Positions 50,431-56,679 of a DNA stretch of 64,000 bases are shown here, one piece after another. Source of the DNA: Palleronia marisminoris (lineage in GTDB: Bacteria; Pseudomonadota; Alphaproteobacteria; Rhodobacterales; Rhodobacteraceae). The DNA lies in contig NZ_FWFV01000009.1 in NCBI RefSeq assembly GCF_900172315.1, forward strand, positions 1 to 64,000, given 5' to 3'. The notes beneath the pieces are model-generated. The model searched no databases. It had not been told where the DNA came from and worked only from the letters and a program-made list of their open reading frames with translations. How positions within the stretch are numbered: the first letter of the stretch is position 1; each line of letters starts with the position of its first letter. The position numbers and the translations under genes are program-made.

Positions 50431-55443
<5,013 letters not shown>

Positions 55444-55458
55444 GCCCAAATCGACGGT

Positions 55459-55473
55459 GTTCACTTAAAGTTC
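55459..55473 (+). promoter_or_regulatory. LexA (SOS) box 1, GTTC-N7-GTTC
   Basis: GTTC-ACTTAAA-GTTC is a perfect match to the alphaproteobacterial LexA operator. It lies 60 bp before the 39-codon gene at 55533. A second perfect box in the opposite orientation starts 13 bp further on, so chance occurrence is unlikely. Confidence 0.8.
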
Positions 55474-55485
55474 TTTACAAACCGT

Positions 55486-55500
55486 GAACGATATGAGAAC
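55486..55500 (-). promoter_or_regulatory. LexA (SOS) box 2, reverse orientation
   Basis: GAAC-GATATGA-GAAC reads GTTC-N7-GTTC on the minus strand, a second perfect alphaproteobacterial LexA site. It lies 33 bp before the small-protein start, with its centre 27 bp from that of box 1. A TTTACA (55474-55479) between the boxes is a possible -35, but no convincing -10 at the standard spacing is visible. Confidence 0.78.
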
Positions 55501-55532
55501 AAATAAGCATCAGAGGAACATGGAGGCCCCCG

Positions 55533-55652
55533 ATGCTTCGCACGCTGAAAGACACGATCCGCCGCTCGGACACGTTCGTCGAGGATTTCGCGGGATGCGC
55601 GGCGCTGGCCCTGTTCCTGGTAGCCGGCCTCCATCTGCCGACATTCCTTTAG
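55533..55652 (+). CDS. 39-residue predicted SOS-induced membrane protein
   Basis: A short gene with a strong GGAGG site 6 bases before its ATG and a stop at 55650-55652. The first 18 residues (MLRTLKDTIRRSDTFVED) are charged and probably amphipathic; residues 19-39 (FAGCAALALFLVAGLHLPTFL) form one hydrophobic helix that fits a single membrane pass. Two perfect LexA boxes precede it and a terminator follows, so it is a self-contained unit expected to be induced by DNA damage. Architecture recalls Caulobacter SidA/DidA, small SOS or damage-induced membrane division inhibitors, without evident sequence similarity. Similar short proteins may occur in relatives. Confidence 0.78.
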   Translation: MLRTLKDTIRRSDTFVEDFAGCAALALFLVAGLHLPTFL

Positions 55653-55765
55653 GTTTCTGCCTGCGTCTCCCGGGCAGGGTCCCGTGCATGATCCGCCCCC
55701 AGCGACATGCGCGACGCCACTGCCGGATCCGCCTCGATCCACGACCCACCCGGACGCGCATCCTC

Positions 55766-55801
55766 ACCGCCGCCATCCACCCGGATGCGCGGCGGTTTTT
55801 T
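55766..55801 (+). terminator. Rho-independent terminator of the SOS small-protein unit
   Basis: A long stem (ACCGCC-GC-CATCC paired with GGATG-CGC-GGCGGT, one bulged base, 4-base loop ACCC) is followed by six Ts at 55796-55801. On the minus strand there is no T run, so it terminates plus-strand transcription from the small gene about 110 bp upstream. Confidence 0.8.
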
Positions 55802-55803
55802 CG

Positions 55804-56253
55804 TCAGGCGGTGGCGTTTTCCTCGGCTGTCGCAAACGCTTCGGTCGCGGCATCGAGCGCCAGCATGATCGAGGCGTGGCGGTTCTTGTAGTCTCGCGCC
55901 GGGCGCAGCACCTCAAGCCCGTCGAATGGGGCGGAGGGCGCCGGACCGTCCTGCTTCAGCATCGCGCGCAGCTCGTCCCGCGCCTGCTCGAGCTCGGCAC
56001 GGTCACGACCCAGGATCGATTTCCCTACGACGGCGGCCGAAGCCTGTCCCAAAGCGCAGGCCTTCACGTCCTGCCCATAGGCGACGACGCGTCCGTCGGC
56101 GACTGCGATGTCCACGGTCACTGTCGAGCCGCAGAGCGGTGAGCGCTTCTTCACCGTGGCATGCGGATGATCCAGCCGCTCGGTCAGCGGTATGTCCGCC
56201 GCGAGCTCGAGGATGCGGCCCGAATAGAGCTTGATGAGATCGCTGTCGGACAT
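55804..56253 (-). CDS. NifU/IscU-like iron-sulfur scaffold protein
   Basis: A 149-residue cytoplasmic protein of the NifU_N/SufU family, which assembles Fe-S clusters before transfer. Two of the three usual Cys ligands are visible: SPLCGSTVTVDIAV near residue 40 and VKACALGQASAAVVGKS near residue 67. The third Cys, normally near the C-terminal end (RxxCA), is replaced: the corresponding segment reads YKNRHASIMLALDA. It may therefore be a variant scaffold or trafficking factor. AGGGAAAG precedes the ATG. It is divergent from hisI. Confidence 0.85.
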   Translation of the reverse strand: MSDSDLIKLYSGRILELAADIPLTERLDHPHATVKKRSPLCGSTVTVDIAVADGRVVAYGQDVKACALGQASAAVVGKSILGRDRAELEQARDELRAMLKQDGPAPSAPFDGLEVLRPARDYKNRHASIMLALDAATEAFATAEENATA

Positions 56254-56325
56254 GACTTTCCCTTGCTTGGTCCGTGATAGATAAGCGGTTCTATCCGTTT
56301 CGCAATCTCCTTCGAAAGGTGGCAC

Positions 56326-56679
56326 ATGTTCGATCCGGCTACCCTTAAATTCGACGCGGCGGGACTCGTGCCTGCGATCGCGCAGGATCATTCCAGTGGC
56401 GAAGTCCTGATGCTCGCCTGGATGAATGCCGAGGCCGTCGCGAAGACGCTCGACACCGGCCGCGTCACCTATTGGAGCCGCTCGCGCCAGGCCTTCTGGG
56501 TGAAGGGCGAGACGAGCGGCCACCTGCAGCACCTCGTCGAGATGCGTGTGGATTGCGACCGTGACTGCCTGCTGGTCCTGGTGCGCCAGGAGGGGCCGGC
56601 CTGTCACACCGGGCGTCGAAGTTGCTTCTATACCTCGGTGCGCGACGGCGACGAGGTCGAGATCATGGCGCCGGAGTAA
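56326..56679 (+). CDS. hisI: Phosphoribosyl-AMP cyclohydrolase
   Basis: A 117-residue enzyme of histidine biosynthesis that opens the purine ring of PR-AMP. Metal-binding and catalytic parts are visible: [20 protein letters not shown] near residue 44, [12 protein letters not shown] (two Asp, two Cys) near residue 75, and [13 protein letters not shown] with the zinc ligands. It is the stand-alone form, not fused to HisE. AGGTGG precedes the ATG. Its 3' end overlaps gluQ, convergent, by 17 bp. Confidence 0.96.

Follow-up and report, generated by a model that had tools for sequence, protein, structure and literature searches.

A Proposed LexA-Controlled Unit Behind recG in Rhodobacteraceae: A Small Predicted Membrane Peptide and, in Many Members, a Conserved RNA

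The Locus Behind recG

The window, by which we mean the whole 64-kb stretch of DNA analysed, carries a recG gene that is recognised by the Pfam domains RecG_wedge, DEAD, Helicase_C, and RecG_dom3_C over positions 53362-55440. It is followed on the same strand by two LexA boxes, a ribosome-binding site, a gene of 39 codons, a structured RNA element and an intrinsic terminator (Table 1). An earlier note on this DNA had placed two perfect boxes after recG as well as the gene, its ribosome site and the terminator, and all of them stand as placed; the terminator stem folds with -24.8 kcal/mol (z -4.54). That note described only a part of the unit because the covarying RNA between stop codon and terminator was missed.

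Table 1. Positions of the features at the recG locus within the window.
Feature	Position	Strand	Remarks
recG	53359..55443	+	usual upstream neighbour of the small gene; start by frame reading
LexA box 1	55459..55473	+	GTTCACTTAAAGTTC; perfect GTTC-N7-GTTC, read directly
Probable -35 element TTTACA	55474..55479	+	abuts box 1; putative role
LexA box 2, inverted	55486..55500	-	perfect; GAACGATATGAGAAC on the plus strand, GTTCTCATATCGTTC on the minus strand
Ribosome-binding site GGAGG	55522..55526	+	6 nt 5' of the ATG, read directly
Gene P0001 for a small predicted membrane protein	55533..55652	+	39 codons; product MLRTLKDTIRRSDTFVEDFAGCAALALFLVAGLHLPTFL
3' structured RNA element	55657..55766	+	divergent, shortened copy; matches covariance models R1 and R2
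Intrinsic terminator	55766..55801	+	stem 55766-55796, then U-run to 55801
Convergent neighbour gene	55804..56253	-	149 aa; ends face to face with the small-gene unit

The gap between the end of recG at 55443 and box 1 measures 15 nt and contains no terminator (55443-55459). Hence, transcription reading through from recG should yield the peptide, unless LexA also stops passing polymerase. The half-site GAGAAC of box 2 overlaps the probable -10 element. The convergent neighbour, which presumably resembles an IscU/NifU-type scaffold, has no Pfam match at 1e-5; by tblastn, 24 of 29 relatives have it close to the small gene. Farther along the same window, Pfam recognises a phosphoribosyl-AMP cyclohydrolase.

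Distribution and Conservation of the Small Gene

With the 39 residues as query, relatives are found in 86 of 198 family genomes (E 0.01), and a protein profile built from 30 members (A1) matches in 168 of 198 Rhodobacteraceae genomes. In an order-level draw, 260 of 292 genomes match at E 0.001, all of them from the same family among the matches listed. A class-wide draw of 385 genomes returned nine matches, five of which are convincing and lie without exception in the family of the window, while four weak ones (E 0.0027-0.0076, inside frames of 237-526 aa) are taken as chance. Among the 235 relatives in named genomes, the 80 best come from Ruegeria, Leisingera, Tritonibacter, Sulfitobacter, and others of this group, or from unresolved alphaproteobacterial bins; one carrier of the gene is a Ruegeria pomeroyi strain (L209). 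Over 421 close pairs of named loci dN/dS amounts to 0.139, indicating purifying selection. Together with the 168 profile matches, this ratio rules out a chance open reading frame. Conservation of the frame in relatives had been named in the earlier note as a point to check, and it is borne out by the profile and by the position of the gene behind recG in 109 of 112 loci.

No convincing match of the small protein was found in Pfam, NCBIfam, PHROGs, PADLOC, or among solved structures. The viral contigs, plasmids and phages searched, the latter two with one member as query, contain no relative, which argues against a mobile or phage gene. An old alphaproteobacterial gene behind recG is likewise not supported: none of the 27 best-scoring recG loci from outside the family shows a small hydrophobic frame, and one of the 27 carries a box.

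In 24 of the 30 family genomes without a profile match, recG could be located. A perfect box follows within 400 nt after recG at 16 of these 24 loci, and 15 of the 16 have a hydrophobic frame of 38-67 residues after recG, several of which show the family's D..G or LP pattern. Thus, the gene comes closer to being universal than the number of profile matches would suggest, and it evolves fast. The other eight recG loci lack the box and one of them has a small hydrophobic frame, which is doubtful; thus, the unit can apparently be lost. Two profile matches each occur in G046, G072, G087, G117, G187, G655, and G739, where second copies of the small gene elsewhere in the genome are possible.

The Operator and the Promoter Region

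A single GTTC-N7-GTTC is common: the window contains three, with 1.68 expected, and the whole genome 114, compared to 59 for a reversed-pattern control. The operator stands above chance because it is conserved at homologous loci. Among 112 loci examined, window included, recG lies upstream in 109, with 80-312 nt from the recG stop to the start of the small gene, and a perfect GTTC-N7-GTTC-type box is found closely upstream of the gene in 111; it is also present in 78 of 80 named loci. Restricted to homologous loci behind recG, a perfect forward box lies at most 140 nt before the small gene in 108 of 109 cases, the one exception being L149. The chance of a box within 140 nt is 0.3% in shuffles, and none of 104 control stretches inside recG contains one, so that a chance match is ruled out. 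L039 represents the same locus as L030 and is left out of the set of 109; it is still among the 118 rows of the register count.

Three loci (L098, L137, and L146) have no recG within about 700 nt upstream of the small gene. They are not part of the 108/109-type counts and were looked at separately. In all three, the small gene is preceded by a box at a distance of 72-84 nt, so the box travels with the small gene and not with recG, and a box that is a feature of recG is unlikely. Moreover, these loci illustrate that LexA box and small gene can move as a whole. Some alphaproteobacterial recG genes are apparently LexA-regulated according to PMC3323433; the sites described there lie upstream of recG, whereas the operator of the small gene lies behind it.

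Immediately 3' of the box, TTTAC is found in 92 of 108 loci. Searching for sigma-70 promoters of the E. coli type gave no match. The promoter region of the family can be written as tttGTTCgCaAATGTTCTcAaAAAGTTCTTTACA-N14-AtaTGAGAACAAAgggGCAACA. The earlier note suggested checking both boxes for conservation and took the pair to imply tight repression. For box 1 the conservation is as strong as stated above. Box 2 differs: a perfect inverted second box at most 60 nt after the first occurs in five of 108 loci, window counted, and in the register of the window it is restricted to the window and L134. As a family feature, a second box in this register is thus ruled out, and the paired arrangement persists in a changed form. 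Of the 108 loci, 97 have the half-site GAGAAC at a constant distance. In 93 of the 108, the second site is GAAC-N7-CAAC, an inverted box that deviates from a perfect one at a single position and lies one helical turn downstream of where the window has its perfect box 2. A third GTTC, one turn upstream, is found in 95 of the 108. In the window, neither this GTTC nor the CAAC half is present; its perfect inverted box sits one turn closer instead. The conservation of half-site and inverted site suggests that in most of the family LexA probably bridges the -35/-10 region from both sides, in slightly varied registers.

SOS Genes and LexA in the Same and Related Genomes

Boxes of the same type are found in the same genome at lexA, recA, uvrA, uvrD, a dnaE2-like gene, an imuB-like gene, and rSAM_link_UDG. 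The boxes at lexA and recA, together with the conserved operator, support the proposal of LexA control that the earlier note had made. We inspected 20 own-genome boxes, chosen by eye for AT-rich spacers among the 114, and the small gene alone has two perfect boxes among these loci. The recA promoter (L170, some 105-150 nt 5' of the RecA match) combines one perfect and one imperfect inverted box, with an inverted spacing of 27 nt, which is the geometry found at the small gene of the window.

A LexA match (TIGR00498) was obtained in all 16 gene-bearing family genomes tested. Three of the eight box-less genomes have no LexA match, and five keep LexA yet lost the unit at recG. In G195, G167, and G008, which have no TIGR00498 match, recG was found and is followed by neither box nor small gene; G029 has no TIGR00498 match either, and its recG was not found.

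Three further boxes of the window's own genome lie at other genes. On contig C15, a perfect LexA box precedes the start of a 73-residue DUF3072 protein (L157:847-1065) by 19 nt; its gene is another small SOS candidate. A reverse transcriptase with an RVT_1 domain (L153:5-1015, contig C9) has a LexA-type box with GC-rich spacer at its start, and this box may be a chance match; the best NCBIfam matches of the protein are a group II intron reverse transcriptase and the antiviral Drt3a, both under their cut-offs. At L162:4-1023 (contig C22), a CNNM/PaeA-like membrane protein has a LexA-type box beside its start codon.

The Peptide

Members of the family are 36-42 aa long and contain a single hydrophobic core, in agreement with the one helix that the earlier note described. 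The N-terminal side of the core carries an excess of K/R in 109 of 109 members, the core itself is without charge in 103 of 109, and the chain ends about 4 residues past the core. The small protein is therefore predicted by hydropathy to be a single-span, N-in peptide of the inner membrane.

The peptide of about 40 residues follows the residue pattern D..G..AL...L...L.LP. D18 and G21 are invariant in all 109 members, which come from about 108 genera, L33 is present in 108, and P36 in 104, the other five ending early or differing there. Conservation is periodic at 100 degrees (moment 9.07 compared to 3.67, p 0.004, gaps excluded). Hence, one face of the helix is conserved, as expected for a helix docking on another protein.

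The RNA Between Stop Codon and Terminator

At 20 Ruegeria-type loci, conservation over the 200 nt past the stop codon roughly equals that of the frame. Across the family, this stretch can be folded into a closing stem, formed in L187 by TGCGATCTCATGCCGG and CCGGATCCCTCATGAGACCCGCA, and a GCATC/GATGC hairpin plus others; the terminator comes next. A covariance model (R1), built from 13 well-aligned sequences with the structure set by hand, matches 67 of 100 loci at E 0.1, and 59 of these also pass 0.01. Seven seeds are among the 67, and L034 is identical to seed L187. In the R1-matched alignment, each of the 20 pairs has changed on both sides, pairing holds in 92.3% of cells (72.3% when shuffled), 224 cells carry double changes (47.3 shuffled), and the covariation score is 0.467, compared to at most 0.078 in slid controls; this count leans towards the fold because the structure was set by hand and the alignment fitted to it. 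An alignment-free test with swapped arms was added for this reason: the closing-stem arms score 16.7 within their own genome and 13.5 (sd 0.24) when swapped between genomes, and the own arms pair better in 74 of 94 elements. A first RNAalifold run on 45 whole 3' regions returned the terminator only. Unconstrained RNAalifold on the extended alignment, which was fitted to that fold, gave the closing stem again. Of the 109 loci, 96 have a terminator recognised by rule; these supplied the elements, of which 94 could be trimmed. Without the terminator, the RNA folds with a median z of -2.48, and 65% of z values are below -2.

A broader covariance model (R2) was run over 197 whole family genomes and matches in 79 of them, once per genome. 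All 79 matches lie on the same strand as the small gene, 4-72 nt past its end; positions were checked by script for all of these and for a part of the 67 R1 matches. Under the stricter filters of this search, R2 finds no match in the other 118 genomes, among them that of the window (G000). Among the 33 loci missed by R1, R2 recovers 21 at E 0.1 and 12 at 0.01, including the copy of the window. This copy has an E of 0.0064 with R2 in 118 kb and of 0.003 with R1 in 501 nt, and the region 55655-55803 folds with a z of -5.04 including the terminator and about -2.5 without it. The RNA of the window is thus a weak, divergent copy, and with matches in only 79 of 197 genomes, many members may lack the RNA or carry a strongly altered form. 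The RNA model finds no match in the 27 recG loci from outside the family or in 20 other loci of the own genome. Rfam gives none at E 1 for 55200-56400 of the window, and for 10 relatives it gives eight sub-threshold matches, none of which covers the RNA element.

Of the 94 trimmed elements, 79 contain the word CTGTCCC, for which chance predicts 0.035 occurrences in each. This word is mostly unpaired, with a probability of 0.75, and the repeated words as a group reach 0.75-0.79, compared to 0.53 for all C/U; counts of CTGCC are biased, since trimming starts each element at [CT]TGCC. The usual anti-ribosome-site word CCTCC is depleted (eight of 94 elements, mean 0.10 compared to 0.54 shuffled), and pairing of the RNA to the ribosome site of its own gene is not favoured (-18.1 with the own site, -18.7 with swapped sites).

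Relation to Known Systems

CcsR/cuckoo RNAs of Rhodobacter sphaeroides, a member of the same bacterial family, are reportedly hairpin RNAs with C-rich loops behind a small-protein gene; they are said to carry the anti-ribosome-site motif CCUCC and to be controlled by heat-shock-type sigma factors. In contrast, CCUCC is rare in the RNA described here (8/94), the control is by LexA on our reading, and the RNA forms one closed multi-hairpin domain.

SidA of Caulobacter crescentus is described in PMC4211646 as a LexA-controlled inner-membrane protein of 29 aa that binds FtsW, and the operator type of Caulobacter is GTTC-N7-GTTC according to PMC12700426, which also treats the kinetics of the Caulobacter SOS response. 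In that work, a Caulobacter lexA mutant forms filaments, and deletion of sidA abolishes this. The peptide resembles SidA in its very small size, its alphaproteobacterial origin, its predicted single span in the inner membrane and its probable LexA control. Unlike SidA as described, the gene here is linked to recG, restricted to one family, encodes the pattern of about 40 residues and in many members is followed by an RNA. YneA (Bacillus subtilis), SosA (Staphylococcus aureus), and ChiZ (Mycobacterium tuberculosis) are likewise SOS-induced small membrane-helix proteins acting in late division. In YneA, the transmembrane helix docks on TM7 of FtsW; for SidA, SosA, and ChiZ the same docking is suggested by AlphaFold 3 models whose confidence is not high (PMC13396833). 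The transmembrane part of YneA alone localised and did not block division, for which the periplasmic domain was needed (PMC13396833). The peptide ends shortly after its core and has no counterpart of the periplasmic LysM domain that YneA needs, which counts against a role as division brake. SulA occupies the same functional slot of an SOS-induced division inhibitor; it is an FtsZ inhibitor of another family. Its domain PF03846 scores over the cut-off in none of 197 family genomes (one weak match lies in a stop-broken frame), and the small protein, having no Pfam match, does not contain it.

LexA sites have been described in Dinoroseobacter shibae (PMC6473078). The small gene is not mentioned in the available parts of PMC6473078, PMC12700426, PMC13384398, and PMC3323433. 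In the titles and abstract openings of the open-licence literature, we found nothing on the small gene, and in that literature no SOS-induced division inhibitor of Rhodobacteraceae.

Proposed Mechanism and Alternatives

Operator, gene, protein type and RNA fold are conserved, and so is their linkage. We consider it somewhat more probable than a coin toss that they form a LexA-controlled SOS unit whose peptide holds back division, joined in many members by a conserved RNA on the same transcript. Without damage, LexA would occupy the GTTC half-sites over the probable -35 and -10 elements and keep the promoter shut. Upon DNA damage, RecA would trigger the self-cleavage of LexA and the promoter would open. 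A transcript of about 0.3 kb might then start near 55505, close to the conserved GAGAACAAA, and end at 55801. Its 5' part would be translated into a peptide of 39-40 residues that inserts into the inner membrane with its N-terminus inside and exposes almost nothing to the periplasm. The likeliest role of this peptide, by analogy with SidA, DidA, YneA, and SosA, would be that of a division inhibitor: the conserved helix face around T14, D18, G21, L25, L29, and P36 might dock on a protein of the membrane, the likeliest being FtsW or one of its neighbours in the late divisome, and delay septation until repair is finished. Three points lead to FtsW as the preferred guess: it is bound by SidA (PMC4211646), its TM7 is where the YneA helix docks and where models suggest that SidA, SosA, and ChiZ dock as well (PMC13396833), and SulA is not found in the family (0/197 over cut-off).

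Other roles of the peptide are conceivable. It might act directly on the membrane like TisB or DinQ, so that its induction would lower the proton-motive force and lead to dormancy. Small size, hydrophobicity, SOS control and a single helix are in line with this idea, and DinQ is an SOS-controlled toxic single-span peptide (PMC3567139). We regard it as improbable since the invariant D18 and G21, P36 (104/109) and the conserved docking face exceed the apparent needs of a pore former, the core is uncharged in nearly all members, and, compared to TisB and DinQ, there is no sign of a structured leader (the 5' leader has a z of -0.40) or of a known antisense RNA, Rfam giving no RNA in the region, although undescribed antisense RNAs are beyond its reach. 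The conserved helix face would equally suit a regulator of another membrane protein during DNA damage, such as a CckA-type histidine kinase, a transporter or a protein for the release of gene transfer agents, and PMC6473078 relates a connection of LexA with cckA and gene transfer agents in Rhodobacter capsulatus. As no linkage to such genes is seen, no relative occurs in the viral contigs, phages and plasmids searched, and the peptide has no domain outside the membrane, this reading is unlikely, though it deserves to be kept in mind.

For the RNA, the closed multi-hairpin fold past the stop codon would present CUGCC and CUGUCCC in unpaired stretches and would most likely serve as a regulatory RNA from the 3' end of the message or set the fate of the message itself. 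A single LexA transcript that encodes both a divisome-braking peptide and a regulatory RNA silencing or sequestering targets through the exposed CUGCC/CUGUCCC is a possibility to which we give a little less than an even chance. A comparable chance, again short of even, falls to an RNA without action in trans, which would stabilise the 3' end of the peptide mRNA or provide a binding site that sets its half-life. Such a cis role fits the finding that every genome-wide match is joined to the frame, closely behind it and once per genome, whereas the repeated accessible words are more than a plain stabiliser needs, and pairing with the own ribosome site is no better than with those of other genomes. 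Lastly, the transcript might chiefly serve to make the RNA, with the short frame as a conserved leader directing how the RNA is processed. The covarying fold, the recurrence of CTGTCCC and the strict linkage to the frame would agree with this, but the frame is under purifying selection at the level of residues and is present in 168 of 198 genomes, compared to 79 of 197 for the RNA, making this the kind of explanation for which we see very little room.

Meaning for the SOS Response of Rhodobacteraceae

Rhodobacteraceae are a major bacterial group and common in the sea. If the peptide brakes division as proposed, the unit would fill the slot of the SOS division inhibitor in most of the family. 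What is new is a covarying RNA, presumably under LexA, attached to the unit in many members. Should this RNA act in trans, the SOS response of Rhodobacteraceae would have an RNA branch that is directly testable. If one transcript indeed delivers both a division-braking peptide and a regulatory RNA, one promoter switched on by damage would halt division and reshape translation at the same time, and the SOS response of Rhodobacteraceae would have a post-transcriptional arm.
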